A DNA stretch of 64,000 nucleotides, taken from NCBI RefSeq assembly GCF_932274485.2, contig NC_065883.2, forward strand, positions 48,268,539-48,332,538. The letters run 5' to 3'. The notes beneath the pieces are model-generated. The model worked only from the letters and a program-made list of their open reading frames with translations. It did no database searches and had not been told where the DNA came from. The number at the start of each line of letters is the position of its first letter. Positions within the stretch are counted from its first letter, which is position 1. The translations under genes and the position numbers were made by a program. This stretch comes from Patella vulgata. Taxonomy: Eukaryota > Mollusca > Gastropoda > Patellidae. Below, in pieces: positions 568 to 31,604 of the stretch.

Positions 568-2485
568 TAAACATGCTCCACAGAAAACCAAACGTGTTAG
601 GAATGCTACGAAGCAGCCCTGGCTTACCAAAGAAATTTTTAATATTGCGCGTCAACGCGATTACCATAAAAAGAAGGGAAATATTACTTAGTCTAAAATG
701 TAAAGAAATTTGTTAAAGAGTATGATTCGGAAAGCAAAAGCTATATATTTTCAAAGTCTTGTCTCTAATAATAAACATTCTAAAACTATATGGAATGCCA
801 TAAACACAACTTTAAATAGAAACAATAACAATTCACAAACAATCCCCATTGTTTCGGAAGATTTTAATACTTATTTTACTGAAATTGCCAGAAATTTACT
901 CCGTAGTAGTACAACAATTGATAATATCGATATGACAAAAATGTCTGTCTTTGTTAATAATCATAAGCCTTCTCAAGCTCAATTTCATATCCCAGGTATA
1001 AAAGTAACAGAAGTTAATAAGTCCCTAAAAGCTCTAGATATCACAAAAGCCGTTGGACTAGACTCTGTTAATGCCCTGTTTCTTCAAAAAGGTGCACACA
1101 TAATCTCTGAAAGCCTAACCTATATTTATAATATTTGTATTGATGAGAATGTTTTCCCTACTGTTTTAAAAACTGCTAACGTTTTATGGACCCAAAAATG
1201 ATCCAAACAACTACCGACCAATTTCCATATTACCAAGTTTATCAAAAGTATTAGAAAAACATGTCTATTCACATCTTAATGAATATCTTAATAAATATAA
1301 TTTATTGTATTCTAACCAGTCCACGTTCAGATCTAATAGGTCCTGTTTGACTGCTTTAACTAATATTACTGAAAATATGTATGACTCCCTAAATAATAAT
1401 CTTCTATGTGGGGCCATTTTCTTTGATTTTAGGAAAGCATTTGACCTGGTAAATCATAAGCTGTTACTACAAAAATTGCAATTGTATCAATTGTCCAAGA
1501 CATCTATAATGTTTCTCAATTCATACCTGCTTGATAGACAACAAAGGACCTTTGTAAATGGTAATTTGTCTTCTTGTAAACCAATAGTTCATGGCGTACC
1601 ACAAGGTTCAGTCTTGGGTCCTTTATTATTTAATATTTTTATAAATGATTTACCTCTGTATTTAAATTCTAAATGTGATCTTTTTGCTGATGATACAACC
1701 ATTTATACTAGTGCAAAAACTGTTTCTGACCTTCAAAACAATCTTCAAATTGATACTGATACGGTGATGAATTGGTGTAGACATAAATAGCATGATAGTT
1801 AATGAGGTCAAAACAAAATCCATGTTAATTACAACTAGACAGAAGCGTAAACATTTATCGTCTGAACTTAGTATTAAAATCAATGACTCAGTCATCTAAA
1901 TTGTTCCTAGGTTCAAACTTTTGGGAATTATTTTAGACCACCATTTACAGTGGACCGACCATGTACATTATGTAATTAAAATTGTGAATCAAAAGATTTT
2001 CCAACTTCGCAAAATCAAGCAGCTACTACCACTTCAATGTCGGTCTCTATTCTACAAAGCATATACACAAACCTATCTCGATTATTATTCACCAGTTTGG
2101 GATCGGGGTGACTCTACTGCTTTGAGTACACTAACTCGTCAACAAAACAAAGCCTTTAAATTGATTCTAGGTATAGAACATACAAAAGATTTGGCTCCAG
2201 GCCTTGCCCCAATCAAACTCTTAAATATTAAACAGCGTCACTTAGTGAACAAATATGCATTTATTTACAAAATTATTAATCAACAATGCCCTTCATATTT
2301 AACCAACATCCTCTGCTACTACGATACTCCATACTCTAATATCAATAACAAAATTGTCATTCTTCGGCCTAATCTATCTGTTGTTAAAAACAGTATTAGA
2401 TTTACTGGTGCCTATTTATGGAATTCATTACCTGACTGTTTAAAATATTGTAAATCATATTATTCATTTCGAAGGCGATTATTTA
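568..2485 (+). pseudogene. LINE (non-LTR retrotransposon) linker and reverse transcriptase, degraded
   Basis: Reverse-transcriptase ORF of a LINE, CR1/L2/Jockey-like by its style (clade not certain). An N-terminal linker piece reads WLTKEIFNIARQRDY near 630. The fingers/palm contain NNYRPISILP (about 1206), FFDFRKAFDLVNHKLL (about 1421; first catalytic D), GVPQGSVLGPLLFNIFINDL (about 1593) and the catalytic FADD (about 1683). The C-terminal part includes LGIILDHHLQWTDH, PVWDRG and a LAPIKLLNIKQRHL stretch. The reading is broken by at least two frameshifts (near 1190 and 1785) and stops (near 700 and 1897), and the endonuclease half is missing, so it is dead. The left end abuts the inverted E1 at 564; E1 copy 1 is inserted a few codons before the natural stop, with the remainder resuming at 3909. 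Confidence 0.92.
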
Positions 2486-3908
2486 GGGTTTCACACTGCG
2501 TAGCTTGTGTGAAACACTATTGTTTTTGTTAAAATTATTATTCTTATTATTATTATTCTTCTTTTGTTTTGAGTAGATCTCAGCAACTTTATGTCGGATC
2601 GTTACGATTTCTTCGGTTTTATCGGAAAAGTGGGTGTGACTTAGAGGATAAAGCTATTTTGAACGTTCTGCGACAATGCGAAATGTCGGAAATCACCGAA
2701 GCTATCGTTTTTAGAAATATTGCAGTAATTTTAACAATAATCATTGGATTTTAACTTTCGATACATTTTGGCATAGCCGGAGACGGGGCACATAGCTACG
2801 CTACTTTTGATTTTTGATTTTCGGCAAATCTTCGCAGATATTAGGCGCCAAATTTAGAAAATTTAAATTTTTACAAAAAACTTTTTTATTTATGAATATT
2901 TTTTAGTCGTGTTTTACACAAATATAACGACTCCTTTGACTTGGGCAAAAATGTGAAAATTTTTTGTCTCTGTAATTTTCCTTGGCCCCCATTGGCTAAT
3001 TCAGTTTTTCAGTCCTAGATTAATTATTTATTGTTCGATTTGTATAAAACAAAGTTCATATGCTCCGTTGTCTCAATTGTTATTTTTCTTGTTACCAATA
3101 GTGTTATCTGTCGGCACCGGAAGTGGCGTAAATTGACAAAAAACTACAATATTGACAGTTAGGTACCATTTTTCGAAAGCAAAAGGTGAAAAAAGGTGTA
3201 AAATTAAGCTATTTACAACCCATCCAGCGTTTTCATATTTTAAGATATTACTTCGTAACTTTTTAAGGTTTTTTGTCAATAAAAGTGTCAATTATTATTC
3301 GATTTTCATGAAATTTTCACTGTGTGATACATAATGCTATTTACGATTTCATACAAGTAATTTAAGATTTTCATTATCACCGGAAGTAACGTCATTTTGG
3401 CAAAAACTGTATTTTTAGCCTTCAAAACAGATATTTTATTCAAATAAATCAGATTTGTAATATTTTTAATATTATGATATTTGATTCCAATCAACAAATA
3501 GAATGAACTCATACGATCATACAGATACCTCAAAATGGTTTCTAACTTGTACGGTTGCAGAGAAATAGACGATTTTCTACAAGTCATTTTTCAAGGTTTT
3601 TGGTCTATAAAGGTGGCAATTATTATTGGATTTACATAAAATTTTCACCATGTGATGATGATATTTCTGATTTCATAAACCAATTTAACATTTTCATTAT
3701 CACCGGAAGTAATGTAATTTTGACAGGATCACTGACATGTAGCAAATGAATTGATTGCTGGATTTGGTTGTTTCTGCGTCCATTTTATTTCATGTGTACA
3801 ATGCTTATGTGGAAACCTGTTTAACGGTTTCATTAGTACCGGAAGTGACATAAGTTCAAGGGTAACGTGGCACCGGTGAAACCCGTCATTACTGCTTCGC
3901 AGTTCTAG
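2486..3908 (+). mobile_element. Helitron/Helentron-like non-autonomous element E1, tandem unit 1
   Basis: The 5' end GGGTTTCACAC forms a hairpin with GTGTGAAAC (stem 2488-2496 with 2507-2515). The first nine bases GGGTTTCAC recur inverted as GTGAAACCC at 3876-3884, just inside the 3' end. A 3' hairpin ACTGC-TTC-GCAGT (3891-3903) is followed by TCTAG|T. It lies between A and T with no target duplication: removing it joins the LINE frame as RRRLFIKFVTT-stop. This matches known Helentron derivatives with asymmetric terminal inverted repeats, although CTAG is more typical of canonical Helitrons. No transposase or Rep/helicase is encoded; short reading frames inside are not credible genes. Four CCGGAAGT octamers occur (3117, 3380, 3703, 3839). 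Confidence 0.85.
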
Positions 3909-4275
3909 TTAAATTTGTAACTACGTAGAGACCTAGTATAGTCTTCTTTGTAGTAGTACTTATATACATTGGGAGCGGTCGGAAGAAATATATTATGGTC
4001 ATTTCCATTAATTAATTTGTTCTATTTACATGTACCATAAGCATAGTATTAGATGATAAATATATGATTCCTGTGTGACAACTTTATTATATTGTGATTG
4101 TAATTGATATTTTTAATTGTGATTTTGTTAATATTCTTTTGTAAATATTGCTCTGTTTTCAAATTTCATTTGTAACTTCTTTAACTTCTGTTATAAAATG
4201 CAAAATGTAAGACAGGCCTCCTGGCCTAATTTTCAACCCTTTGAAAATAAAGTTATTATTATTATTATAGACTGC
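3909..4275 (+). mobile_element. LINE 3' end with (TTA)n tail, unit 1
   Basis: This resumes the LINE interrupted by E1: AAATTTGTAACTACGTAG closes the ORF, then a 3' UTR runs to GAAAATAAAGTTATTATTATT. A short microsatellite tail of TTA repeats is the usual end for this kind of LINE. Repeated in units 2 (6768-7130), 3 (9724-9950, truncated) and 4 (12389-12750). Confidence 0.85.
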
Positions 4276-4636
4276 TCGAGAGCTAATAAAAATAGATAAG
4301 ATAAGGTAAGATTTTATTTTATTGTTTGTATCGAAACATCCATTGAGAACAGCATACAAATTACAATATAAACATGTACAATATGACAAATAATATTAAT
4401 ATATATATTTACAAATAAGACAAATGATAATTTTAATTTAGGTTACACATTTACTAACAGGACAAACAGTAGCATGACGAATGACAATCAAATGACGAAT
4501 GACAAGGAATTTCTAAGCAATAACTGCTCCCTTTGGCTTTAGGCCAATATAATTCAACTACAGTATTCAGTAAAATTTATATTTAGGATAAATCAATCTA
4601 GTAATAAGTCACTGGAACGATAAACCGAGTCTAGAT
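4276..4636 (-). mobile_element. Retroposon 3' tail on minus strand, unit 1
   Basis: AT-rich stretch that on the minus strand ends in ACAAACAATAAAATAAAATC, carrying AATAAA, which suggests the 3' end of another retroposon in opposite orientation to the LINE. No coding sequence recognised. Copies follow in units 2 (to about 7496), 3 (partial, 9950-10160) and 4 (to about 13120). Confidence 0.4.
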
Positions 4637-4914
4637 ACTATTAGGGTTTCACATTGCGTAGCTTGTGTGAAACACTATTGTTTTTGTTAAGATTATTATT
4701 AGGGTTTCACACTGCGTAGCTTGTGTGAAACACTATTGTTTTTGTTAAGATTATTATTCTTCTTCTTATTAGGACTAAAATTATTATTATTATTAGGCTT
4801 TCAGACTTTCGTCTGAAAGCCTATTGAGATTGCTAAAATTATTATTATTATTAGGCTTTCAGACTTTTCATATTTTAAAATATTTCTTTGCAACTTTCAT
4901 AAACTTGTAGCATT
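4637..4914 (+). repeat. Array of Helitron-like 5' terminal hairpins, unit 1
   Basis: Two tandem copies of the E1 5' end (TTAGGGTTTCACAYTGCGTAG...) about 57 bp apart. Then a perfect hairpin GGCTTTCAGAC-TTTC-GTCTGAAAGCC (4796-4821), then a second GGCTTTCAGAC that runs into the interior of a different element. Each is separated by TTA-rich spacers. In units 2-4 the first array has three E1 copies. Confidence 0.85.
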
Positions 4915-4972
4915 AAACCTGACTGTTTAAAATATTGTAAATCATATTATTCATTTCGAAGGCGATTATTTA

Positions 4973-6767
4973 GGGTTTCACACTGCGTAACTTGTGTGAA
5001 ACACTATTGTTTTTGTTTTGAGTAGATCTCAGCAACTGATTGTCGGATCGTTACGATTTCTTCGGTTTTATCGGAAAAGTGGGTGTGACTTAGAGGATAA
5101 AGCTATTTTGAACGTTCTGCGACAATGCGAAATGTCGGAAATCACCGAAGCTATCGTTTTTAGAAATATTGCAGTAATTTTAACAATAATCATTGGATTT
5201 TAACTTTCGATACATTTTGGCATAGCCGGAGACGGGGCACATAGCTACGCTACTTTTGATTTTTGATTTTCGGCAAATCTTCGCAGATATTAGGCGCCAA
5301 ATTTAGAAAATTTAAATTTTTACAAAAAACTTTATTTATGAATATTTTTTAGTCGTGTTTTACACAAATATAACGACTCCTCTGACTTGGGCAAAAATGT
5401 GAAAATTTTTTGTCTCTGTAATTTTCCTTGGCCCCCCATTGGCTAATTCAGTTTTTCAGTCCTAGATTAATTATTTATTGTTCGATTTGTATAAAACAAA
5501 GTTCATATGCTCCGTTGTCTCAATTGTCATTTTTCTTGTTACCAATAGTGTTATCTGTCGGCACCGAAAGTGGCGTAAATTTACAAAAAACTACAATTTT
5601 GACAGTTAGGTACCATTTTTCGAAAGCAAAAGGTGAAAAAAGGTGTAAAATTAAGCTATTTACAACCCATCCAGCGTTTTCATATTTTAAGATATTACTT
5701 CGTAACTTTCATAAACTCGTAGCAATAATCTATACGGAGAGAATGTATGTGAAAATTAATTTGTAATATGCGCAGTTGCCGAGAAATGGGCAATTTTGCA
5801 TGAGTCACTTTTTACGCTAGTTTGCCTGTAAAAGAGTCAATTATTATTCGATTTTCATAAAAGTGACACCATTTGATGTGTAATGTCAATTTTAACTAGG
5901 TCAAACCAATTTAACATTTTCAATATCACCGGAAATGACGTAATTTGGGCAAAAATTGTAAATAATTTATTCAAATGAGTCATATTTGTTATTTGTTTAA
6001 AATTTTGATATTTGATTCAAATCAACTAATACAATGAACCCTTACGATCATATAGATATCACAAAATGGTTTCTAACTTGTTCAGTTGCGGAGAAATAGG
6101 CAATTTTCAACAGGTCACTTTTTAAGGTTTTTTGTCAATAAAAGTGTCAATTATTATTCGATTTTCATGAAATTTTCACTGTGTGATACATAATGCCATT
6201 TACGATTTCATACAAGTAATTTAATATTTTCATTATCACCGGAAGTAACGTCATTTTGGCAAAAACTGTATTTTTAGCCTTCAAAACAGATATTTTATTC
6301 AAATAAATCAGATTTGTAATGTTTTTAATATTATGATATTTGATTCCAATCAACAAATAGAATGAACTCATACGATCATACAGATACCTCAAAATGGTTT
6401 CTAACTTGTACGGTTGCAGAGAAATAGACGATTTTCTACAAGTCATTTTTCAAGGTTTTTGGTCTATAAAGGTGGCAATTATTATTGGATTTACATAAAA
6501 TTTTCACCATGTGATGATGCTATTTCTGATTTCATAAACCAGTTTAACATTTTCATTATCACCGGAAGTAATGTAATTTTGACAGGATCACTGACATGTA
6601 GCAAATAAATTGATTGCTGGATTTGGTTTTTTCTGCGTCCATTTTATTTCATGTGTGCAATGCTTATGTGGAAACCTGTTTAACGGTTTCATTAGTACCG
6701 GAAGTGACATAAGTTCAAGGATAACGTGGCACCGGTGAAACCCGTCATTACTGCTTCGCAGTTCTAG
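4973..6767 (+). mobile_element. Helitron-like element E1, tandem unit 2
   Basis: Same termini as the unit 1 copy: 5' GGGTTTCACAC hairpin, inverted GTGAAACCC near the 3' end, ACTGC-TTC-GCAGT hairpin and TCTAG|T. It keeps about 0.4 kb of interior that unit 1 lost and lacks about 40 bp of TTATT-rich sequence just after the 5' hairpin. No gene. Confidence 0.88.
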
Positions 6768-7889
6768 TTAAATTTGTAACTACGTAGAGACCTAGTATAG
6801 TCTTCTTTGTAGTAGTACTTATATACATTGGGAGCGGTCGGAAGAAATATATTATGGTCATTTCCATTAATTAATTTGTTCTATTTACATGTACCATAAG
6901 CATAGTATTAGATGATAAATATATGATTCCTGTGTGACAACTTTATTATATTGTGATTGTAATTGATATTTTTAATTGTGATTTTGTTAATATTCTTTTG
7001 TAAATATTGCTCTGTTTTCAAATTTCATTTGTAACTTCTTTAACTTCTGTTATAAAATGCAAAATGTAAGACAGGCCTCCTGGCCTAATTTTCAACCCTT
7101 TGAAAATAAAGTTATTATTATTATTATAGACTGCTCGAGAGCTAATATAAATAGATAAGATAAGGTAAGATTTTATTTTATTGTTTGTATCGAAACATCC
7201 ATTGAGAACAGCATACAAATTACAATATAAACATGTACAATATGACAAATAATATTAATATATATATTTACAAATAAGACAAATGATAATTTTAATTTAG
7301 GTTACACATTTACTAACAGGACAAACAGTAGCATGACGAATGACAATCAAATGACGAATGACAAGGAATTTCTAAGCAATAACTGCTCCCTTTGGCTTTA
7401 GGCCAATATAATTCAACTTCAGTATTCAGTAAAATTTATATTTAGGATAAATCAATCTAGTAATAAGTCACTGGAACGATAAACCGAGTCTAGATACTAT
7501 TAGGGTTTCACATTGCGTAGCTTGTGTGAAACACTATTGTTTTTGTTAAGATTATTATTAGGGTTTCACACTGCGTAGCTTGTGTGAAACACTATTGTTT
7601 TTGTTAAGATTATTATTAGGGTTTCACACTGCGTAGCTTGTGTGAAACACTATTGTTTTTGTTAAGATTATTATTCTTCTTCTTATTAGGACTAAAATTA
7701 TTATTATTATTAGGCTTTCAGACTTTCGTCTGAAAGCCTATTGAGATTGCTAAAATTATTATTATTATTAGGCTTTCAGACTTTTCATATTTTAAAATAT
7801 TTCTTTGCAACTTTCATAAACTTGTAGCATTAAACCTGACTGTTTAAAATATTGTAAATCATATTATTCATTTCGAAGGCGATTATTTA

Positions 7890-9723
7890 GGGTTTCACAC
7901 TGCGTAGCTTGTGTGAAACACTATTGTTTTTGTTAAAATTATTATTCTTATTATTATTATTATTCTTTTGTTTTGAGTAGATCTCAGCAACTGATTGTCG
8001 GATCGTTACGATTTCTTCGGTTTTATCGGAAAAGTGGGTGTGACTTAGAGGATAAAGCTATTTTGAACGTTCTGCGACAATGCGAAATGTCGGAAATCAC
8101 CGAAGCTATCGTTTTTAGAAATATTGCAGTAATTTTAACAATAATCATTGGATTTTAACTTTCGATACATTTTGGCATAGCCGGAGACGGGGCACATAGC
8201 TACGCTACTTTTGATTTTTGATTTTCGGCAAATCTTCGCAGATATTAGGCGCCAAATTTAGAAAATTTAAAATTTTTACAAAAAACTTTATTTATGAATA
8301 TTTTTTAGTCGTGTTTTACACAAATATAACGACTCCTCTGACTTGGGCAAAAATGTGAAAATTTTTTGTCTCTGTAATTTTCCTTGGCCCCCCATTGGCT
8401 AATTCAGTTTTTCAGTCCTAGATTAATTATTTATTGTTCGATTTGTATAAAACAAAGTTCATATGCTCCGTTGTCTCAATTGTCATTTTTCTTGTTACCA
8501 ATAGTGTTATCTGTCGGCACCGGAAGTGGCGTAAATTTACAAAAAACTACAATTTTGACAGTTAGGTACCATTTTTCGAAAGCAAAAGGTGAAAAAAGGT
8601 GTAAAATTAAGCTATTTACAACCCATCCAGCGTTTTCATATTTTAAGATATTACTTCGTAACTTTCATAAACTCGTAGCAATAATCTATACGGAGAGAAT
8701 GTATGTGAAAATTAATTTGTAATATGCGCAGTTGCCGAGAAATGGGCAATTTTGCATGAGTCACTTTTTACGCTAGTTTGCCTGTAAAAGAGTCAATTAT
8801 TATTCGATTTTCATAAAAGTGACACCAATTGATGTGTAATGTCAATTTTAACTAGGTCAAACCAATTTAACATTTTCAATATCACCGGAAATGACGTAAT
8901 TTGGGCAAAAATTGTAAATAATTTATTCAAATGAGTCATATTTGTTATTTGTTTAAAATTTTGATATTTGATTCAAATCAACTAATACAATGAACCCTTA
9001 CGATCATATAGATATCACAAAATGGTTTCTAACTTGTTCAGTTGCGGAGAAATAGGCAATTTTCAACAGGTCACTTTTTAAGGTTTTTTGTCAATAAAAG
9101 TGTCAATTATTATTCGATTTTCATGAAATTTTCACTGTGTGATACATAATGCTATTTACGATTTCATACAAGTAATTTAAGATTTTCATTATCACCGGAA
9201 GTAACGTCATTTTGGCAAAAACTGTATTTTTAGCCTTCAAAACAGATATTTTATTCAAATAAATCAGATTTGTAATGTTTTTAATATTATGATATTTGAT
9301 TCCAATCAACAAATAGAATGAACTCATACGATCATACAGATACCTCAAAATGGTTTCTAACTTGTAAGGTTGCAGAGAAATAGACGATTTTCTACAAGTC
9401 ATTTTTCAAGGTTTTTGGTCTATAAAGGTGGCAATTATTATTGGATTTACATAAAATTTTCACCATGTGATGATGCTATTTCTAATTTCATAAACCAGTT
9501 TAACATTTTCATTATCACCGGAAGTAATGTAATTTTGACAGGATCACTGACATGTAGCAAATGAATTGATTGCTGGATTTGGTTGTTTCTGCGTCCATTT
9601 TATTTCATGTGTGCAATGCTTATGTGGAAACCTGTTTAACGGTTTCATTAGTACCGGAAGTGACATAAGTTCAAGGATAACGTGGCACCGGTGAAACCCG
9701 TCATTACTGCTTCGCAGTTCTAG
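7890..9723 (+). mobile_element. Helitron-like element E1, tandem unit 3
   Basis: 1834 bp, complete at both ends by the same hairpin and CTAG criteria. Nearly identical to the unit 4 copy. Non-coding. Confidence 0.88.
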
Positions 9724-10554
9724 TTAAATTTATAACTACGTAGAGACCTAGTATAGTCTTCTTTGTAGTAGTACTTATATACATTGGGAGCGGTCGGAAG
9801 AAATATATTATGGTCATTTCCATTAATTAATTTGTTCTATTTACATGTACCATAAGCATAGTATTAGATGATAAATATATGATTCCTGTGTGACAACTTT
9901 ATTATATTGTGATTGTAATTGATATTTTTAATTGTGATTTTGTTAATATGATAATTTTAATTTAGGTTACACATTTACTAACAGGACAAACAGTAGCATG
10001 ACGAATGACAATCAAATGACGAATGACAAGGAATTTCTAAGCAATAACTGCTCCCTTTGGCTTTAGGCCAATATAATTCAACTTCAGTATTCAGTAAAAT
10101 TTATATTTAGGATAAATCAATCTAGTAATAAGTCACTGGAACGATAAACCGAGTCTAGATACTATTAGGGTTTCACATTGCGTAGCTTGTGTGAAACACT
10201 ATTGTTTTTGTTAAGATTATTATTAGGGTTTCACACTGCGTAGCTTGTGTGAAACACTATTGTTTTTGTTAAGATTATTATTAGGGTTTCACACTGCGTA
10301 GCTTGTGTGAAACACTATTGTTTTTGTTAAGATTATTATTCTTCTTCTTATTAGGACTAAAATTATTATTATTATTAGGCTTTCAGACTTTCGTCTGAAA
10401 GCCTATTGAGATTGCTAAAATTATTATTATTATTAGGCTTTCAGACTTTTCATATTTTAAAATATTTCTTTGCAACTTTCATAAACTTGTAGCATTAAAC
10501 CTGACTGTTTAAAATATTGTAAATCATATTATTCATTTCGAAGGCGATTATTTA

Positions 10555-12388
10555 GGGTTTCACACTGCGTAGCTTGTGTGAAACACTATTGTTTTTGTTA
10601 AAATTATTATTCTTATTATTATTATTATTCTTTTGTTTTGAGTAGATCTCAGCAACTGATTGTCGGATCGTTACGATTTCTTCGGTTTTATCGGAAAAGT
10701 GGGTGTGACTTAGAGGATAAAGCTATTTTGAACGTTCTGCGACAATGCGAAATGTCGGAAATCACCGAAGCTATCGTTTTTAGAAATATTGCAGTAATTT
10801 TAACAATAATCATTGGATTTTAACTTTCGATACATTTTGGCATAGCCGGAGACGGGGCACATAGCTACGCTACTTTTGATTTTTGATTTTCGGCAAATCT
10901 TCGCAGATATTAGGCGCCAAATTTAGAAAATTTAAAATTTTTACAAAAAACTTTATTTATGAATATTTTTTAGTCGTGTTTTACACAAATATAACGACTC
11001 CTCTGACTTGGGCAAAAATGTGAAAATTTTTTGTCTCTGTAATTTTCCTTGGCCCCCCATTGGCTAATTCAGTTTTTCAGTCCTAGATTAATTATTTATT
11101 GTTCGATTTGTATAAAACAAAGTTCATATGCTCCGTTGTCTCAATTGTCATTTTTCTTGTTACCAATAGTGTTATCTGTCGGCACCGGAAGTGGCGTAAA
11201 TTTACAAAAAACTACAATTTTGACAGTTAGGTACCATTTTTCGAAAGCAAAAGGTGAAAAAAGGTGTAAAATTAAGCTATTTACAACCCATCCAGCGTTT
11301 TCATATTTTAAGATATTACTTCGTAACTTTCATAAACTCGTAGCAATAATCTATACGGAGAGAATGTATGTGAAAATTAATTTGTAATATGCGCAGTTGC
11401 CGAGAAATGGGCAATTTTGCATGAGTCACTTTTTACGCTAGTTTGCCTGTAAAAGAGTCAATTATTATTCGATTTTCATAAAAGTGACACCATTTGATGT
11501 GTAATGTCAATTTTAACTAGGTCAAACCAATTTAACATTTTCAATATCACCGGAAATGACGTAATTTGGGCAAAAATTGTAAATAATTTATTCAAATGAG
11601 TCATATTTGTTATTTGTTTAAAATTTTGATATTTGATTCAAATCAACTAATACAATGAACCCTTACGATCATATAGATATCACAAAATGGTTTCTAACTT
11701 GTTCAGTTGCGGAGAAATAGGCAATTTTCAACAGGTCACTTTTTAAGGTTTTTTGTCAATAAAAGTGTCAATTATTATTCGATTTTCATGAAATTTTCAC
11801 TGTGTGATACATAATGCTATTTACGATTTCATACAAGTAATTTAAGATTTTCATTATCACCGGAAGTAACGTCATTTTGGCAAAAACTGTATTTTTAGCC
11901 TTCAAAACAGATATTTTATTCAAATAAATCAGATTTGTAATGTTTTTAATATTATGATATTTGATTCCAATCAACAAATAGAATGAACTCATACGATCAT
12001 ACAGATACCTCAAAATGGTTTCTAACTTGTAAGGTTGCAGAGAAATAGACGATTTTCTACAAGTCATTTTTCAAGGTTTTTGGTCTATAAAGGTGGCAAT
12101 TATTATTGGATTTACATAAAATTTTCACCATGTGATGATGCTATTTCTAATTTCATAAACCAGTTTAACATTTTCATTATCACCGGAAGTAATGTAATTT
12201 TGACAGGATCACTGACATGTAGCAAATGAATTGATTGCTGGATTTGGTTGTTTCTGCGTCCATTTTATTTCATGTGTGCAATGCTTATGTGGAAACCTGT
12301 TTAACGGTTTCATTAGTACCGGAAGTGACATAAGTTCAAGGATAACGTGGCACCGGTGAAACCCGTCATTACTGCTTCGCAGTTCTAG
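10555..12388 (+). mobile_element. Helitron-like element E1, tandem unit 4
   Basis: 1834 bp, the same length as unit 3 and with the same termini. After it come the LINE tail, the minus-strand retroposon tail and three E1 5' hairpins (13120-13297). Non-coding. Confidence 0.88.
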
Positions 12389-13367
12389 TTAAATTTATAA
12401 CTACGTAGAGACCTAGTATAGTCTTCTTTGTAGTAGTACTTATATACATTGGGAGCGGTCGGAAGAAATATATTATGGTCATTTCCATTAATTAATTTGT
12501 TCTATTTACATGTACCATAAGCATAGTATTAGATGATAAATATATGATTCCTGTGTGACAACTTTATTATATTGTGATTGTAATTGATATTTTTAATTGT
12601 GATTTTGTTAATATTCTTTTGTAAATATTGCTCTGTTTTCAAATTTTATTTGTAACTTCTTTAACTTCTGTTATAAAATGCAAAATGTAAGACAGGCCTC
12701 CTGGCCTAATTTTCAACCCTTTGAAAATAAAGTTATTATTATTATTATAGACTGCTCGAGAGCTAATATAAATAGATAAGATAAGGTAAGATTTTATTTT
12801 ATTGTTTGTATCGAAACATCCATTGAGAACAGCATACAAATTACAATATAAACATGTACAATATGACAAATAATATTAATATATATATTTACAAATAAGA
12901 CAAATGATAATTTTAATTTAGGTTACACATTTACTAACAGGACAAACAGTAGCATGACGAATGACAATCAAATGACGAATGACAAGGAATTTCTAAGCAA
13001 TAACTGCTCCCTTTGGCTTTAGGCCAATATAATTCAACTACAGTATTCAGTAAAATGTATATTTAGGATAAATCAATCTAGTAATAAGTCACTGGAACGA
13101 TAAACCGAGTCTAGATACTATTAGGGTTTCACATTGCGTAGCTTGTGTGAAACACTATTGTTTTTGTTAAGATTATTATTAGGGTTTCACACTGCGTAGC
13201 TTGTGTGAAACACTATTGTTTTTGTTAAGATTATTATTAGAGTTTCACACTGCGTAGCTTGTGTGAAACACTATTGTTTTTGTTAAGATTATTATTCTTC
13301 TTCTTATTAGGCTTTCAGACTTTCGTCTAAAAGCCTATTGAGATTACTAAAATTATTATTATTATTA

Positions 13368-14493
13368 GGCTTTCAGACTTTTCATATTTTAAAATATTTC
13401 TTTGCAACTTTCATAAACTTGTAGCATTAATCCATACGAAGAGAATCTATCTCAAAATTAGTTTGTAATATGAGCAGTTGCCGAGAAATTGTCAATTATG
13501 CATGAGTCACTCTTTACGCTATTGTGTCTGTAAAAGAGTCAATTATTAGTGGATTTTCATAAAAGTGACACCATTTGATGCGTAATGTCAATTGGGACTA
13601 GTTCAACTCAATTTAACATTTTCCATGTCACCGGAAATGACGAAATTTGGGGAAAAACTGTATTTATAGCATTCGAAACAAATAATTTATTCAAATGAGT
13701 CGTATTTGTTGTTTGTTTAAAATTTTGATATTTGATTCTAATCAACTAATAGAATGAACCCATACGATCATATAGATATCACAAAATGGTTTTTAACTTG
13801 TTCAGTTGCGGAGAAATAGGCAATTTTCAACAGGTAACTTTTCAAGATTTTTTGTCCATAAAAGTGTCAATTATTATTCGATTTTCGTGAAATTTTCACT
13901 ATGTTATACCTAATGCCATTTACGATTTCATACAAGTAATTTAACACTTTTACTGTCACCGGAAGTAATGTCATTTTGGCAAAAACTGTATTTTTAGCCT
14001 TCAAAACAGATATTTTATTCAATTTGTAATGTTTTTAAAATTATGATATTTGATTCCAATCAACAAGTAGATTGAACCTATACAATCATACAGATACCAA
14101 AAAATGGTTTCTAACTTGTACGGTTGCAGAGAAATAGACGATTTTCTACAAGTTCCTTTTCAAGGTTTTTGGTCTATAAAAGTGGCAATTATTATTCGAT
14201 TTACATAAAATTTTCTCCAAGTGATGCCTTATGCCATTTCTGATTTCATAAAACTTATTTAACATTTTCATTATCACCGGAAGTAATGTAATTTTGTCAG
14301 TATCACTTACATGTAACAAATGTATACAATGAATTGTTATTGCTGGATTTGGTTGATTCTGCGTACATTTTATTTGATGTGTGCAATGCTTATATGGAAA
14401 CCTGTTTAATGGTTTCATCGGTACCGGAAGTGACATATGTTCAAGGGTAGCGGGGCACCGGTGAAACCCGTCATTACTGCGTCGCAGTTCTAG
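13368..14493 (+). mobile_element. Helitron-like element E1b, mixed-family ends
   Basis: Begins with GGCTTTCAGAC (13368), as in the hairpin at 4796, but ends like E1: GTGAAACCC (14461), a GTCATT spacer, an ACTGC-GTC-GCAGT hairpin and TCTAG|T at 14493. Its interior is a diverged E1, including TTTCATTATCACCGGAAGT. The 5' and 3' modules therefore come from two families. This is the element whose left part was caught in the tandem duplication. Confidence 0.75.
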
Positions 14494-16816
14494 TTATTAT
14501 TATTTAGTGCCTGTAACAGATACCGATATGGGACCTAATTTCCTATCGGAAACCATGTGGTGGCTACTTGATAAACTATTTTTGAAACTTCTGCGCCGAC
14601 CGGAAGGGGCCGAATTTCGTGCGGTGCATAAAAATTAAAAAAGGGCCGTTGCTTCGTCAATTCTGTACCCATTTTCATACAAATGACATTTTCAGAAACC
14701 CTGAGTCTTTTCTCGGACGATAGCAGTTGAAAATTTCGAAATTTCGAAACTTCGTCGCTGACTTCTAGCGTTCGATAAATGAAAAAAAAAATTTTTAAGA
14801 CAATTTTTGTTATTTTTCAAAAATTTTCAAATTTTACCTACATTTTTGGAAACCTGAAGACCATCCGATTCCAGAAATATAAGTTTCATTCCGATTTATC
14901 GCCCTTTATTTTTCGATTTTTTTCGAATTTTCTGCCCATTTCCCAACCCTTATATTTGTTTGGAAAAGATAAATCGATAGTTCTGAAAGTCCTGGAACAT
15001 AAAGCTATATAGTCAGACAGCTGGATAAAGCAATTTCAAAAACGATCCGGAAACCGGAAGTAGTCGGAATAATGATAGGTATTTCGAAAAAAAAGCAAAA
15101 AATGGGTGTTTTGGGGAAAAACTCGATTTCTCCGTCCAGTATCAATGGATTAAACGAATTAAGCTTTCGTTGAGTGGCCCGAGGAATGGACTGTCGAATG
15201 ATTTATACGGATACTATCACCAAGCAGAAAAATATGACAAGCTGAAAATCAAGTATTTTCTGATTTGGAGCGTTTTTGGACGCCTTTATCTCAAAAACTT
15301 AACCTACAATTTTTTTTAACTTTCTCTATCGAGAGTCCTTTCGGTAGTCTTGTGCATGAAAACATCCAATAAGTCTTTGAAATGTCTGGAATAGGATAAA
15401 AAAGGGACTGAAAATCGAAAAAAGTCGTAAAATCGTGAAATTTTTGAAAATGCTATATTATTTTATTATTTAATCAGATTTTTACGAAAAGGTTACACAT
15501 TCAGATAGCTGACCTAATTACGATTCTAACGATGTATAATATGTATTGAGTTATTGAAATTTAATTTTCGATATTTTTACATTTTTGAATTTTTGGCACT
15601 TTTGAACATAGGATTTCTCAGGGCCATTTTATCTGATCAGATAATGTAATATATCATTACAGAGCCCTGTGGCAATCTAATTGACCAAATTGGTTATTAA
15701 AACTATCCTGACAATAATCTCCATACCGGACGTATTCAAAAAATGAAGAAAAAGGTTTTAAAAAATTGGCCCTTGTGCGAAAAACTTGATTTCTCCATCA
15801 GATCTTAGCGGACCAAAAGAACTAAAGTGTCGCTGGATAGCCCCATTAATGGACTATCATATGACATGTGAATGATACGATTTAGATGGCTAGAAAATAA
15901 ATTATGATACGCCGAAAATCTAGTATTTTCCGTTTTGGAGCATTTTGAGACGCTATTTTCTCGAAAACGAAAACTAAGTTTTTTCTTAAACCTTTTTTTA
16001 CTGAGAGTCCTATCGGTGGACTATGGCGTGAGTCCAAAAATAAAAGCATTGAAATAATATAAGTGGTCCAAAAAGGGCCTCAATCTTGGAAAAAAGTTGA
16101 AAAATCCTCAAATTACTGAAAATGCTCTTCTATTATTCTTTGTTTTGAAAACAGCTCAATGGGTGTTTCTGAAACTTCTGGTACAGAAAGTTAACTATCC
16201 AAGCCACATGTTAAAACTATCCCGACAATGATCCAAAAACCGGAAGTAGTCGAAAAAATATCTGATATTTTGAAAAAAAAAAAATAAAAAGTAAAAAATG
16301 GTGATCTTGCGAAAAAAGTGATTACAACGCCATATTTCAACGAATCAAAACAACTAAAGTGTCATTGGATAGCCGGAACAATGGACGATCTTATGACATC
16401 TCAATGGTAAAAAAATCGCTTGTTAGGTAATATATTATGAGATGCTGAAAATCTAGTATTTTCCTTTTTGGAGCCTATTCAGACGCTTTTATTTCGAAAA
16501 CTTCTCTTATTTCCTTTCTTAAACTTCTGTTACTTAGAGTCCTAACACTGGTCTGGGGGTGTGAATCCAAATTTAAAAGCCCAAATATAGTATAAATGGT
16601 CCAAAAGGGCCACAATCTTTGAAAAAAGTCGAAAAATCGTTATATCTGTAAATCTGCTTCTAATGGTATAAGGGAGGTAAAACTGTCCAATGGATCTTTC
16701 TGGAACTTCTGGTACAGGAAGTTAAGTTCCCATACCACTTGTTAAATCTATCCCGATAATGATCCGTAAACAGGAAGTAGTCAAAAAAATATTCGATAAT
16801 TAAAAAAAATAAGACA
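14494..16816 (+). mobile_element. Second-family Helitron-like element E2, 3'-truncated
   Basis: Starts after a TTATTATTA flank with AGTGCCTGTAACAGATACC and aligns by eye with 22915 onward. Interior is degenerate, AT-rich repeats of roughly 450-670 bp with recurring phrases such as ACCGGAAGTAGTCG, CTGAAAATC.AGTATTTTC and GGACTAT. It stops at AAGACA|TTATTATT without the 3' hairpin. Several small reading frames occur, but none shows a domain or codon pattern of a gene. Confidence 0.65.
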
Positions 16817-19800
16817 TTATTATTATTATTATTATTATTATTTACCGCGGGAGCCTATTTCTCCATGATCGGAAACAGATATCGATCTGGAACCAAATTT
16901 TCTATCGGGAAACCATGTGGTGGTTACTTGATAAAGTCTTTTTGAAACTTCTGCGCACACCGGAAGTGTCCGAATTTTGAACGGGAGCAATAAATCAAAA
17001 AGCGGCGGTGGTTTCGCCAATTCTTTACCTATTTTAAAACAATTCACATTTTTGGAAACCCCGAATCTTTTCCGAGACAATGGCTATCTCACATTTTTTA
17101 ATTTCGAACATTCATCTATAGCTTTTGTCGTTCGAAATTTGATCTGACTTGGGCAAAAATGTGAAATTGTTTTGTCTCAGTAATTTTCCTTGGCCGCCAT
17201 TGGCTAATTCAGTTTTTCAGTCCTAGATTAATTATTTAATGCTCAATTTGTATAAAACAAAGTTCATATACTCCGTTGTCTCAATTGTCATTTTTTTGTT
17301 ACCGATAGAGATATCTGTCGGCACCGGAAGTGGCTTAATTTTACCAAAAACTACAATTTTGACAGTTAGGTACCATTTTTCGAAAGCAAATTTTATTTTT
17401 TTTAAAAAACTGATATAACTAAAGAGTGTGCCCTTTAAAGGCGCACAAAATGTTGGGATCGCTTTTATTAATTTCGATTTCATTTTCGAGCAAATTCGAT
17501 TAAGAGGTGAAAAAGGGTGTAAAATTGACCTATTTACAACCCATTCAGGCTTTTCAGATTTTAAAATATTTCTACGTAACTTTTATAAACTTGTAGCTTT
17601 AATCCATACGAAGAAAATGTTTGTTAAAATTAGTTTGTAATATAAGCAGTTACCTAGAAATGGGCAATTTTGCATAAGTCACTGTTTTCGTTATTTTGCC
17701 TGTAAAATAGTCAATTATTATTGGATTTTCACAAAAGTGACACCATTTGATTCAAAAAGCAAGTATGCGTCGTATCAAATTGATTACAATTTAAAATTGT
17801 GCGCATAGCGGAAATGCGTCAAATCTTTAACGTGCACGAAAATTGAAAATCGGCCATTATTCTCTTAATTCTCAATGGATTCTTCAGATATTTACATTTT
17901 TGGATAGCTGGAGACATTTCTGAGCAGATAGCATTTCTAAACTGTGGAAATTAGAAACTTTGTTGCTCTCATTTTTTTGATGAAAAATGGAAAATTTTGA
18001 ATTTTGGAATTTGTTACATTTTTGGATAGCTGACCTCAATCCGATTCCAACAATATAAGTTTTGTTCTGAAATGTTGACTTTGATTTTTCACTTTTTTTC
18101 GCATTTTGGTCAAATCGTAGAGTTCTTATTTTTTTAAAACGGCTCCAACGATTTTTCTGAAACTTCAGGAATATGAAGTCGAAGGACCAAACCAGTCCAT
18201 GAACTATAAATGAAAATGCCCTAATCACCGGAAGTAGTCAAGAAAGGTATCCAAACTTTGACAAAATTGTGAAAAATGGGTGCCTGTGCGGAAAATGCGA
18301 TGTATCAATTGTGTTCTTGTCGATTAGTTAAAGTTTTATATCGTTTAATAGCCAATTGAATTGTCTATCGTATGGTACTAAAGCGGCATGTTTCTATCAA
18401 AAATTTAAAAAGTTATGTGACTTTGAAAAGTAACGTTTTTTACGATTTCGAGCAACTTTGGACGCATGTTTCTCGGAAAGTCTCCCAACGATTTTTTAAA
18501 AACTTTCTCAATCGAGAGGCTAATGGGTACTCTGTTTTGTGAAACCACTGTGTCATTTTTTGAAATGTCAGGGGTAGCCGAAAAAAGAGATCGAAAATCG
18601 AAAACGTCGTATATTTACGATTTGGAGCATTTTTAGAGGCCTATTTCTCGAAAAGTCAACATAATTCTTTTTTTGTAACTTCTTCTACAGAGAGGCCTTT
18701 CGGTAGGGTTATACATAAAACGATTTTACAATAGTCCCAAATTTCAGGAGTAGCAGAACAAAGGGATCGAAAATTGAACACGGAACCTTTCATTGTTAAG
18801 CAAAACATAAGTGGGGGGATACAATCTGTACGTTTTGTCAACGTATAGAGTCTATTCAAGAGTGCTTTTATCAGTGATGATATTTGAACTGAAATTATTT
18901 CAACTATGAGTGTTTTCTTCTTTCCAAAATATGGGTTTAGTGACCCTGTAACAGAAATAGTTGATTGCTGTGTGTAATAATTAGTCTTTGAATTAATATT
19001 GTTGCTTCTTTGTCAAAATTATCTTATACCGGTAATCATCTGGATAGAAATCGACAGCTCGCGCTGTTTATAAGACAGTCCAATTTGTTCAGCTGTTGCA
19101 TTAGTATCGTACAGTACTATCGAATATTGCACCTGTGATAAAAGGCGTGACGCTGTTTGAGCATTGACTCTATCTGTAATTAATATTAAATTTTTATTAA
19201 TGACGTCAAATCTTTAACGTACACGAAACCAGAAAATTGGCGATATTTCATTGAATATTCAATCAATTTTTGAACCAGTTACATATATGAGTAGCTGACA
19301 TGAACGCGATTCCGAAGTCTCGTGTACAAATTGGTGTGACCGTAAAAGATCCCTTGGTGGTTAGAATTCTATATAAAAGAAGACTAGCGCCGCTGTACGA
19401 GCATGTTTAGAGATCATTTCGGGACTAACATATGATTTATTTTTTTTTATTTCAACAATTCGCTTGCGCGTAGGGGTCTTTAGCAGTTCGAGGTAACCGG
19501 AGGACCCAGAGAAAACACACGAGTTTAGACAGGCGACATACTCCTTGTCACGTTCAACCGGGGAATCGAAACCCAGACCGTATGATACAGCGCAGTCCCA
19601 AAGGCTATAGCCTACCGTGCAAATTCCAGCCATCATATCGTATCTATATAAGAGACATTTTATTCCTACTGGCGATTTACAAATATTGCATGAAGAAATT
19701 CAAATCATAAGAACATAAACACGACTAATGCACAGTATCATATTGATTATAAAAGTATAATGTATATATTGGTTATACTATATATGTCACAAAACAACAA

Positions 19801-20556
19801 TCATTAGATAATAATAATCATTTACTAATTATATAAATCATTTTAAGAGGTAGGAGTTATCCATTGTTTAATTTAACAGTTATATAATTACCATGGTTAT
19901 AAAGATACGAACACCTAAGACACCTACGATATTTCTGAAACGTCGGGTATATGAAGTCGACGGAACAAACCAGTCCGTGAAATATAAATGAAAATCCTCT
20001 AACCACAGGAAGTGGTCAAGAAAGGTATTCAAAATTTGACAAAATTCTGAAAAATGGGTGCCTGTGCGCCAAATGCGATGTATCAATTGGTTGTTTACCG
20101 AGTACTTAAAGTATTATTTCGTATGGTAGCCACGTGGATTATCTACGAGATGGTGCTATAGCAACAAGATTTTATTGCGAACTAAAAAATTTATGGGACT
20201 TTGAAAAGTAAGGTTATTTACGATTTCGGTCAAGTTTAAACCCATGTATCTCGGAAAATCCGCCAATTATTTTTTTTCAAACTTGCTCAATCGAGATTCT
20301 ACTGGGTAGTGTATTGTGTGAAACCCTTGTACAATGTTTGTAATTGTCATGGGTAGCCTAAAAAAGAGATCGAAAATTGAAAACAGCGTATTTTAACGAG
20401 TTGGGGCATGTTTAGGGGTCAATATCTGAGTTATGCTAGAGTGTGGGTTTTTTGGGGAGGTGGGGGGAGTGGTGGGGTTAATCTTTTGTCATATATCTGG
20501 CGATCGTGTGACGCCTTAGCGACGGTGAAAGCCTTCAGTATTGCGCGCAATTCTAG
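16817..20556 (+). mobile_element. Chimeric Helitron-like element E3
   Basis: 5' part (ACCGCGGGAGCCTATTTCTCC at about 16845) resembles E4 at 20580. 17135-17760 is E1-type interior (GACTTGGGCAAAAATGTG, CAGTTAGGTACCATTTTTCG). 17760-20400 is another degenerate repeat set. The 3' end has GTGAAAGCC (inverse of GGCTTTCAC), hairpin ATTGC-GC-GCAAT and TCTAG|T at 20556. A SINE is inserted near 19405-19640. No genes recognised in its 3.7 kb. Confidence 0.65.
19405..19640 (-). mobile_element. tRNA-derived SINE, minus strand
   Basis: On the minus strand a tRNA-like head carries the B-box-like GGGTTTCGATTCC, followed by a body ending with CTAAAGACCCCTACGCGCAAGCG. The same body occurs at 36095, 59170 and 61580. 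Degraded A box. Confidence 0.7.
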
Positions 20557-22875
20557 TTATTATTATTATTATTATTATTTACCGCGGGAGCCTTTTTCTC
20601 CATGATCGAAAACAGATATCGATCTCGGGTTCAATTTTCTCTCGGGAAACCATGTGGTGGTTACTCGAAAAAGTATTTTTGAAACTTCTGCGCAGACCGG
20701 AAGTGGCCGAATTTTGAACGGTAGCAATAAATCAACAATTTGAAAATACGTTCTTTAGGAGACAATTTTTGTAATTTTTCAAAATTTTCAAATTTGACCT
20801 ACATTTTTGGATACCAGAAGGCAATCCGATTCCAGTAATATAACTTTCATTCAGAGTTATCACCCTTTAGTTTTCGAATTTTTTCGAATTTTCTGCCCTT
20901 TTTGTATGCCCGAATTTCGTTTTACGGCTGAATTGACGTTTCTGAAACTTATGGAACATAAAGTTATAGTCCAAAACCAACTGATAAAACTATTTCGACA
21001 AGAATCCTTAAACCGGAAGTGGTCGAAAAAATGTCCGATATTTAGAAGAAAACGCAAAAAATGGGATTCGACTGTCATATGATATCCATTTCACACGTAT
21101 CCTATGAGAGGGCAGCAAAATATGACATGCTGAAAATCAGGTATTTTCTGATTTGGAGCTTTTTTGGACGCCTGTATCCTGAAAACTGCTCCAAGGATTT
21201 TTTTTAAATTTTCCCTATCAAGAGTCCCCCCGGTAGTCTTGTACATATATCCATCCAATAAGACATTGAAATTTCTGGAATAGGTAAAATAACGTACTGA
21301 AAATCGAAAAAAGTTGAAAAATCGTGAAATTTTGGAAAATGCTATATTATTTTATTATTTAATCAGATTTTTACGAAAAGGTTACACATTCAGATAGCGG
21401 ACCTAATTACGATTCTAACGATGTATAATACTTGTATGTATTGAGTTATTGAAATTTAATTTTCGATATTTTGACATTTTGATATTTTTGACACATTTGA
21501 ACATAGGATTTCTCAGGGCCATTTTATCTGATCAGACAATGTAATATATCATTACATATCCCTGTGGCTATTTGATAAGCCATTCAGGTTATCAAAACTA
21601 TCCCGACAATAATCTCCATACCGGACGTATTCAAAAAATGAAGAAAACGGTTAAAAAAAAAATAGCGCTCTTGCGAAAAACTTGATTTCTCCATCAGATG
21701 TTAGCGGACCAAAAGAACTAAAGTATCGCTGGATAGTCCCATTAATGGACTATTATATGACATCTGAATAATACTATTTAGATGGCTAGAAAATAATTTA
21801 TGGTACGCCGAAAATCTAGTATTTTCCGTTTTGGAGCATTTTGAGACGCCATTTTCTCGAAAACAAAAACTACGATTTTTCTTAAACTTCTTTTACTCAG
21901 AGTCCTATCGGTGGACTATAGCGTGAGTCCAAAAATAAAAGCATTGAAATAATATAAGTGGTCCAAAAAGAGCCTCAATCTTGGAAAAAAGTTGAAAAAT
22001 CCTTAAATTACTGAAAATGTTCTTCTATTTTTCTTTCTTTGGAAAACAGCTGAATGGATTTTTCTGAAACTTCTTGTACAGAAGGTAAGGTAACCAAACA
22101 ACTTGTTAAAGCTATCCCGACAATGATCCAAAAGACGGAAGTAGTCGAAAAAATTTCGGATATTTTGAGAAAAAAACCCGTAAAAATTAAAAAAATGGAG
22201 ATCTTGCGAAAAAAGTGATTACTACGCCAGATTTCACCGAATCAAAACAACTAAAGTGTCATTGGATAGTTCGAACAATGGACAATCTTATGAGATCTAA
22301 ATGGTAAGAATTCGCCGGTGAAGCAATATATAATGGAACGCTGAAAATCTATTATTTTTCTTTTTGGAGCCTATTCAGACGCTTTTATTTCGAAAACTTC
22401 TCTTATTTCCTTTCTTAAACTTCTGTTACTTAGAGTCCTAACGGTGGTCTATGGTGTGAATCCAAATTTAAAAGCCTCAATATAGTATAAATGGTCCAAA
22501 AGGGCCACAATCTTTGAAAAGAAGTCGAAAAATCGTTATATCGGTAAATCTGCTTCTAATGATATAAGGGAGGTAAAACTGTCCAATGGATCTTTCTGAA
22601 ACTTCTGGTACAGGAAATTAAGTTCCCATACCACTTGTTAAATCTATCCCGATAATGATCCGTAAACAGGAAGTAGTCAAATAAATATTCGATATTTTTT
22701 TTAAAAAAAAGACAGTAAAAAAATCGGTGCTCTTGCAACAATCGGGATTTCACCGTCGGGTGTGACCGGATCAAAACATCTAAAGTATCGTTTGGTAGCT
22801 CGATAAATGGGCTATTGTATGACACACTTCCTGTCTGATTCCTGAAAGCCGGTTCAGTGCTGCTTGCAGGTCTAG
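20557..22875 (+). mobile_element. Second-family Helitron-like element E4
   Basis: After (TTA)n it opens with ACCGCGGGAGCC and closes with CTGAAAGCC, hairpin CTGC-TT-GCAG, GTCTAG|T. Interior of about 2.3 kb aligns with E2 and E5. Non-coding. Confidence 0.72.
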
Positions 22876-24789
22876 TTATTATTATTTATTTTTTTGTGGT
22901 AGATCCTATTTCTCAGTGCCTGTAACAGATACCTATATGGGACCTAATTTTCTATTCGGAAACCATGTGGTGGCTACTTGATAAACTTTTTTTGAAACTT
23001 CTGCGCAGACCGGAAGTGGCCGAATTTCGTGCGGTGCATAAAAATTAAAAAACGACCGTAGCTTCGTCAATTCTGTACCTATTTTCATACAAATGACATT
23101 TTCAGAAACCCTGAGTCTTTTCTCGGACGATAGCAGTTGAAAATTTTGAAATTTCGAAACTTCGTCGCTGACTTGTAGCCTTCGAAAAATGAAAAAATTT
23201 GTTTAAAAGACAATTTTTGTTATTTTTCAAAATTTTCAAATTTGACCTACATTTTTGGATACCTGAAGACCATCCGATTCCAGAAATATAATTTTCATTC
23301 TGAGTTATCGCCCTTTATTTTTCGATTTTTTTCGAATTTTCTGCCCATTGCCCAACTCTTATATTTTTGGGAAAGAATAAATCGATAGTTCTGAATGTCC
23401 TGGAACATAAAGCTATATAGTCAGACCGCTGCATAAAGTAATTTCAACAACGTTCCGTAAACCGGAAGTAGTCGAAATAATGATAGATATTTCGAAAAAA
23501 ACGCAAAAAATGGGTGTTTTGGGGAAAAAATCGATTTCTCCGTCCAGTATTAATGGATTAAACGAATTAAGCTTTCGTTGAGTGGCCCGAGGAATGGACT
23601 GTCGTATGATGCCCAATTTATACGAATACTATGACCAAGTAGCAAAAAATATGACAAGCTGAAAATCAAGTATTTTCTGATTTGGGGCGTTTTTGGACGC
23701 CTGTATCTCGAAATCTTAACCGCAACTTTTTTTTTAACTTTCTCTATCGAGAGTCCATTCGATAGTCTTGTGAATTATGCCATCCAATAAGACTTTGAAA
23801 TGTCTGGAATACAATAAAAAAGGGCAGAAAATCGAACAAAGTCGAATAATCGTGAAATTTTGCAAAATGCTCTATTACTTTATTATTTAAACAAATTTTT
23901 ACAAAAAGATTACAGATTCGGATAGCTGATCTAATTACGATTCTAACGATGTATAATATGTATTGAGTTATTGAAATTTAATTTTCGATATTTTGACATT
24001 TTTGGATTTTTGGCACCTTTGAACATAGAATTTCTCAGGGTCATTTTATCTGATCAGATAATGTACTATATCATTACAGAGCCCTGCCGCTATTTAATTG
24101 CCCAAACTGGTTATTAAAACTATTCCGACAATAATCTCCATACCGGAAGTATTCAAAAAATTAAAAAAAAAGGTTAAAAAATTGTCGCTCTTGCGAAAAG
24201 CTGGATTTCTCGGTCAGATTTTACCGGATCAAAAGAAGTAAAGTGTTTTTGGATAGCCCCATTAATGGACTATTATATGGCATCTCAATGCGACGATTTC
24301 GATGGTTAGAAAATAAATTGTGGTACGCCGAAAATCTAGTATTTTCCGATTTTGGAGCCTTTTTAGACGTCTTTTTCTCGAAAACGACAACTCCGATTTT
24401 TCTGAAACTTTTTTAACGCAGAGTCCTATCGGTAGTCTGTGGCGTGAATCCAAAAGGAAAAGGTTTGAAATAATATAAGGGGTCCAAAAATGGCCTCAAT
24501 CTTTGAAAAAAGTTGAAAAATCTTCAAATTATTGAAAATGTTCTTCTATTTATCTTTTTTACAAAAAACTACTGAATAGATGTTTCTGACACTTCTGTGA
24601 CAGAAAGTTAAGTATCTAAACAAATTGTTAAAACTATCTCGACAATGATCCAAAAACCGGAATTAGTCGAAAAAATATCCGATATTTTTGAAAAAAAACT
24701 GTAAAAAGTAAAAGAAGTGGTGATCTTGTGAAAAAATGATAACTATGCCAGATTTCACCGAATCAAAACAACTAAAGTATCATTGTATA

Positions 24790-26290: not shown

Positions 26291-26778
26291 TATATATCCT
26301 GATCAATGGACGATTTTATGACATGTAAATGGTAAAAATTTGCTGGTTAGGCAATACATTATGGGACGCTGAAAATCTTGTATTTTCCTTTTTGGAGCCT
26401 ATTCAGACGCTTTTATTTCGCAAACTACTCTTAATTCATTTCATAAACTTCTGTTACTTGGAGTCCTAGGGTGGTCTAGCCTCAATATATACTCATGTCG
26501 AAAAGAAAGTATACGCTGTGCATTTCATACTGCATCAACCAAAGTCGTTTTTCCATTCTATGCGGTATTTGGGTACAATTTCAATATGTTTCACCTTTTA
26601 TTTTGCAAAAATCGTGATTTCTCAGCCGGGTGTCACTGAATCAAAACATCTAAAGTATCGTTTGGTAGCTCGATCAATTAATGGGCTAATGTATGACACA
26701 CTTCCTGTTTGATTCCTGAATGCCGGTTTAGTGCTGCTTGCAGGTCTAGTTATTATTATTCTACTTTTGATTTTCGGC

Positions 26779-30777: not shown

Positions 30778-31604
30778 TATACGCCCACATTGAAATGTGG
30801 TTGTATATTGTCGTCGCCCCCGTGCGTCCGTCTGTCTGTCCATCCGTCCGTCCGTCCTGTCTTGAGACAAAGAAGCCTATTGATTTTCAGCGATTTCCGA
30901 TAATTACTGCCAGAGTTATGGCCCTTGATCACTTCAAAAAATCTTGTGGAAGCTCTAGAAGCCAAAGTTAATATCCGATTGACCTTAAATTTATACACAG
31001 TGTTTAAGGTCATGAGACGAAGAAACCTATTGATTTTCAGCGATTTCCGATAATTATTGCCAGAGTTATGGCCCTTGATCACTTTGAAAAAAATCTTGTG
31101 GACGCTCTAGAGGCTAAAGTTAATATCCGATTGAGTTTAAATTTATACACAGTGTTTGAGGTCATGAGACGAAGATTCATATTGATTATCAACGATTTCC
31201 GATAATTACTGCCAAAGTTATGGCCCTTGATCACTTTGCAAAATCTTGTGATGCTCTAAAGGCTAAAGTTATCATCCAATTGACTTCATTTTGATACACC
31301 GAGTTTAAGATCTTGAGACGAACAAGTATATTGATTTTCAATGAATTTTTATGACTTGAACAGTTAAATCCATGATATTAAAAGCTTTGCATACAAAACG
31401 TTAGCATGGGGCAGAACTTTATAAAAACCAAACAAATTCTAATAGTTTTCTGATAATTACTTCGTGAGTTGTTGCTCTCAATCAGATTTTAGTGTATTAT
31501 AAATGTTTCATTACCGAAAAAAGTAAAAATATGCGACAACCCTTGTTGACTGCCCGGACGATTTAGTTGCTGTGGGCGTATGTTTCGTTGCCTGGCAACC
31601 TATC
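30778..31604 (+). mobile_element. Helentron-like element H-B, short
   Basis: Full terminal set: ATACGCCCACATTG hairpin start with a TCCGTCCG tract, inverted TGTGGGCGTAT near 31570, GTTGC-CTG-GCAAC hairpin and CTATC|TTT. The interior is three copies of a 150-152 bp repeat of a second subfamily, marked by GGCCCTTGATCAC and CTAGAGGCTAAAG. Lies in DPP3 intron 3. Confidence 0.82.

Follow-up and report, generated by a model that had tools for sequence, protein, structure and literature searches.

A probable Helitron2/HINE-type transposon in a Patella vulgata LINE, with relatives apparently piled up in each other's TTA repeats

Within a 64,000-nucleotide stretch of Patella vulgata DNA (the window), a LINE open reading frame is interrupted near its 3′ end by an element, E1, whose termini raise two questions: whether it combines traits of different Helitron groups, and where exactly it was inserted. 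An earlier note on this DNA had answered yes to the first, and to the second had proposed insertion between A and T without duplication. E1 is very probably a non-autonomous rolling-circle transposon of Helitron2/HINE type, non-coding and dependent for its movement on a predicted Rep/helicase element acting in trans. It is largely ordinary for that known type; the one thing that sets it apart is that its relatives appear to accumulate in each other's TTA repeats.

Termini and classification of E1

The boundaries of E1 are certain to about 3 bp, the start lying perhaps anywhere in 2483–2486, and the independent ends of copies in the window confirm both termini to within this distance. The element comprises the following parts.

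2486–3908, + strand: E1, probable non-autonomous element of Helitron2/HINE type, lodged in the 3′ end of a LINE reading frame
2484–2519, + strand: 5′ hairpin TAGGGTTTCACAC...GTGTGAAACACTA, with the upstream TA within the stem
2486–2494, + strand: 5′ asymmetric terminal inverted repeat (ATIR) GGGTTTCAC, 9 bp
2529–2563, + strand: ATT/TTA-rich microsatellite of the left module, with the same motif as the insertion target
3255–3725, + strand: remnant of a central tandem repeat, unit about 323–328 bp
3876–3884, + strand: 3′ asymmetric inverted repeat GTGAAACCC, 24 nt from the end at 3908
3891–3903, + strand: 3′ hairpin ACTGC-TTC-GCAGT, then TCTAG, from folding and comparison of ends

The asymmetric inverted repeats described in the earlier note are borne out: GGGTTTCAC occurs 23 times on the two strands of the window against 0.38 expected, and the chance of its partner GTGAAACCC falling at the right place is about 5e-5. 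The 5′ hairpin is likewise strong, folding at -10.6 kcal/mol (z -5.1, with 0 of 200 shuffles as good), and a second family of 5′ ends (GGCTTTCAGAC) forms a hairpin with 13 perfect pairs (-13.4 kcal/mol, z -6.5). In both 5′ families, the TA just upstream of the GGG pairs within the stem. The stem changes between these families are paired (GGGTTTCACAC/GTGTGAAAC versus GGCTTTCAGAC/GTCTGAAAGCC), and the 3′ inverted repeats change along with the 5′ stems (GTGAAACCC versus CTGAAAGCC).

Hairpins had been claimed at both ends, and the 3′ one is weak in energy: its 5-bp stem, ending 5 nt from the terminus, is short and unexceptional alone (z -0.6), but the hairpin recurs in related ends and its position is kept in five 3′ ends. 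One of its five pairs carries a compensatory C-G to T-A change, which is equalled by 87 of 500 shuffles and is within chance for five sequences, hence suggestive only. Three related families have a common 3′ plan, comprising an inverted repeat, a hairpin and then TCTAG/TTA (the slash marks the junction with the flank). The CTAG terminus at 3908 is confirmed by independent 3′ ends with different flanks, and the 5′ ends, reading (TTA)GGG or (TTA)GGC, have no 5′ TC, as the note had stated.

These features place E1 with Helitron2, which upholds the Helentron-like identity given earlier and removes most of the case for a combination of groups. Helitron2 is defined by hairpins at both ends together with asymmetric inverted repeats at such distances (Bao and Jurka 2013, PMC3627910), and E1 is therefore not a mix; a CTAG end with insertion between A and T has also been described already (PMC4067079). 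The 9-bp 5′-ATIR lies 0–2 bp from the 5′ end and is involved in the 5′ terminal hairpin, the 3′-ATIR falls in the range of approximately 20–30 bp from the 3′ end, and the 3′ hairpin, albeit weak in energy, is downstream of the 3′-ATIR at a position conserved in five ends. The 5′ terminal T of Helitron2 can be read in E1 only ambiguously, as the start lies within TTA. E1 differs from Helitron2 (PMC3627910) in its CTAG 3′ end, in a TTA-flanked site rather than one between TTTT and T or C, and in that no protein was seen. Canonical Helitrons (Helitron1) share the 3′ CTRR, present as CTAG in five of five independent ends, and differ in having a 5′ TC, no 5′ hairpin and a palindrome of 16–20 nt about 11 bp from the 3′ end, whereas the 5′ hairpin of E1 is strong.

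The internal plan is that of the HINE elements known from oysters and other bivalves, which have a microsatellite, central repeats and a 3′ palindrome (PMC7492417). As in the HINE/Pearl-type Cg_HINE (PMC7492417), a left module with a subTIR, its inverted partner and a microsatellite is followed by central tandem repeats (more complete in the copy E2 than in E1) and by a right module with a subTIR and palindrome; in E1, however, the microsatellite is of ATT/TTA type, the central unit is about 325 bp and the flanks are TTA instead of oligo-T. HINEs occupy TT or T-rich sites without target duplication, and E1 has T on both sides in one placement. The proto-Helentron-Pi of Phytophthora shares the CTAG 3′ end and is reported to insert between A and T (Thomas et al. 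2014, PMC4067079), but is described as protein-coding with a canonical-Helitron-like structure, whereas E1 has ATIRs, a 5′ hairpin and no coding capacity. Elsewhere in the window, GTCC-type microsatellites near 151-bp tandem arrays (27123–29339 and 47819–50819) look like bivalve Pearl/Cg_HINE-type elements. By their style, the repeats suggest a molluscan host.

E1 is classed as non-autonomous because no ORF in the window was recognised as a Rep/helicase. The window has 17 ORFs of 110 aa or more; a Pfam check of seven of them matched no Rep/helicase, detecting one LINE reverse transcriptase, two Tc1-like DDE fragments and nothing else, and no autonomous partner was seen in the window. Two similar sequences at 52101–52800 and 54700–56530 form an inverted pair with matching ORFs of about 125 aa and no Pfam match. 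Searches of viral contigs with the 5′ and 3′ end patterns of E1 returned either nothing or two near-identical contigs, which have neither the hairpin nor the inverted repeat of the element and were taken as chance matches.

Independent copies and the insertion site

Further copies and ends in the window are as follows.

1–570, - strand: E0, an independent copy cut by the window edge, apparently in the same LINE as E1, with three tandem 5′ ends from 564
4973–6767, + strand: E2, a copy of the E1 insertion made by segmental duplication and flanked by the same LINE sequence
7890–9723, + strand: E3, segmental duplicate of the E1 insertion
10555–12388, + strand: E4, segmental duplicate, 99.9% identical to E3
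13124–14493, + strand: E5, a composite in which a row of 5′ ends (three of family 1, two of family 2) precedes an E1-like body and a single CTAG 3′ end
20525–20556, + strand: independent 3′ end of a related family (GTGAAAGCC...ATTGCGCGCAATTCTAG)
22841–22875, + strand: independent 3′ end of a third related family (CTGAAAGCC...CTGCTTGCAGGTCTAG)
26715–26749, + strand: second 3′ end of the third family

E1–E4 are one insertion copied by tandem segmental duplication, because they share their LINE flanks (the left 56 bp of LINE identical, the right flank 99.6–100% identical) within a larger tandem duplication; four separate transpositions are rejected on the identity of these flanks. The duplication spans 2430–14496, in units of approximately 2.5–2.9 kb that each hold a LINE end, the element, a LINE tail and a 5′-end array. 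Identity between two adjacent units reaches 99.96% over 2667 bp, and their duplication is thus either very recent or a product of the assembly. Three flanks (E1, the 4644-type end and minus-strand position 564) bear independently on the 5′ end, and five ends in three related families (3908, 14493, 20556, 22875 and 26749) on the 3′ end. A Tc1-like element with a DDE_3 domain (24783–26293) interrupts a Helitron2-type copy of the third family, at what appears to be a TA-containing site.

Every junction reads TTA/GG at the 5′ side and CTAG/TTA at the 3′ side, and because TTA stands on both sides the placement is ambiguous between A/T, T/T and a 3-bp TTA duplication. Removal of E1 had been said to restore the LINE frame and so to fix both ends. 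When the LINE flanks were joined under seven placements, including the 3-bp TTA duplication, the frame stayed open in all seven, with 0 to 6 residues to the stop; the frame therefore fixes no boundary, and was rejected as boundary evidence. The exact cut site of E1 cannot be fixed from the window, A/T being one of at least four readings. Each predicts its own empty LINE site: ATTTATTAAATTTG for A/T, ATTTTTAAATTTG or ATTTTAAATTTG for T/T, and ATTTAAATTTG for a TTA duplication or an element beginning TTAGGG. No empty site was seen, and an uninterrupted relative of the LINE was absent from the viral and bacterial collections searched.

One serious possibility, held at somewhat less than even confidence, is that the element is TAGGG...CTAG (or AGGG...CTAG) lying between T and T, an ordinary Helentron/Helitron2 target, with A/T an alignment artefact of the shared TTA. 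This placement, which puts T on both sides of every junction, is slightly favoured by the TA that pairs inside the 5′ hairpin in both families, by the tendency of Helitron2 elements to start with T and to carry the ATIR 0–2 bp from the end (PMC3627910), and by the preference of bivalve HINEs for TT. That TA could, however, be host sequence if TTA is obligatory in the target, and the perfect continuity of (TTA)n fits A/T equally.

Insertion between A and T without duplication, the mode of canonical Helitrons and the reading first proposed, is not established and is held with much the same, less than even, confidence. It is slightly favoured by the CTAG end and by the same insertion reported for the Phytophthora proto-Helentron (PMC4067079), and it makes GATTATTTA/TTAAATTTG a simple continuation. 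Against it, with the frame argument void, A/T is indistinguishable here from the other placements, and conservation of the flanks reaches TTA on both sides, which exceeds what an A/T rule needs.

The alignment of termini among the window copies, which agree to about 3 bp, upholds the ends, but a 3-bp TTA target duplication fits the junctions as well as A/T does, since TTA flanks every junction on both sides. Removal of one TTA also yields the LINE C-terminus SFRRRLFKFVTT, which we take to resemble the usual LINE pattern. Such a duplication is nonetheless improbable: a fixed 3-bp target duplication is not normal for rolling-circle elements built in this way, and a match is automatic within (TTA)n tracts. 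A cut-and-paste element with TTA duplication (Harbinger-like) was judged unlikely, as the repeats are asymmetric and the 3′ repeat lies 24 nt inside the conserved end.

TTA tracts and composite 5′ ends

Tracts of (TTA)3 or longer occupy 463 of the 128,000 strand positions of the window (0.36%), and four of the five independent 3′ ends directly adjoin one. At least some of these tracts lie in sequence that resembles related elements; the flank after 26749, for example, resembles E1 at 2800–2838. Long non-coding bodies of a further related repeat family lie at 14498–16819, 20557–24789 and 31602–33539, several of which start with a (TTA)n tract adjoining a 3′ end.

The tandem 5′ ends of 58 bp are joined exactly at TTA/GG, and in E5 a row of 5′ ends drawn from both family 1 and family 2 precedes the single 3′ end. 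Arrays similar to that of E5 are also present at 4644, 7503 and 10168. At 4636–4853, and in repeats at 7498, 10163 and 13119, two to three family-1 5′ ends (58 bp) are followed by two of family 2, again joined at TTA/GG. Because E1 itself has (TTA)n in its 5′ region, the element may provide its own landing pad, which could be the source of the tandem 58-bp 5′ ends.

A mechanism can be proposed from what is observed: the structure of the element, its independent ends, the TTA on either side and the tendency of 3′ ends to lie beside (TTA)n. A Rep/helicase acting in trans would copy E1 by rolling circle, as in the published Helitron2 model (PMC3627910), with strand displacement presumably beginning from a nick at one end and the end point set, following the same model, by the 5′ hairpin and pairing of the 5′ and 3′ ATIRs. 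The product would join a TTA-rich target, probably without duplication. New copies may thereby nest in the (TTA)n of their relatives' 5′ regions, and copying that started at the outermost 5′ end and stopped at the first 3′ end would then yield composites bearing several 5′ ends.

For part of the arrays it is quite possible, if somewhat short of probable, that unequal exchange or slippage between TTA tracts, and not nested insertion, made the tandem 58-bp ends. The homologous TTA tracts that border the unit on each side would permit this, and a private variant, GCGAAGC, is common to two adjacent E0 units. The mixed row of family-1 and family-2 ends in E5, both joined at TTA/GG, does not follow from simple duplication alone. 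Nested insertion has a precedent in the Helitrons of Fusarium, whose multiple 5′ termini are explained by self-insertion (PMC5148889). The FoHeli composites, like the E5-type arrays, have short tandem 5′ termini and one 3′ terminus; here, by contrast with FoHeli (PMC5148889), the units are joined at a TTA tract in every case, and this would explain where self-insertion takes place.

The broader proposal, which we advance as speculative and rather doubtful, is of a Helitron2/HINE lineage that keeps its own (TTA)n target near the 5′ end as a landing pad in which relatives nest to give multi-headed composites, and that, with CTAG and A/T insertion, would stand between canonical Helitrons and Helitron2. 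The E1 terminus adds a CTAG-ending example on the Helitron2 side. No function is known for the microsatellite of the HINE left module. Should it serve as the target at which the element itself inserts, a single cause would account for its presence, for the nesting and for the multiplicity of 5′ ends, and such a landing pad would be a route by which such elements seed satellite-like arrays.
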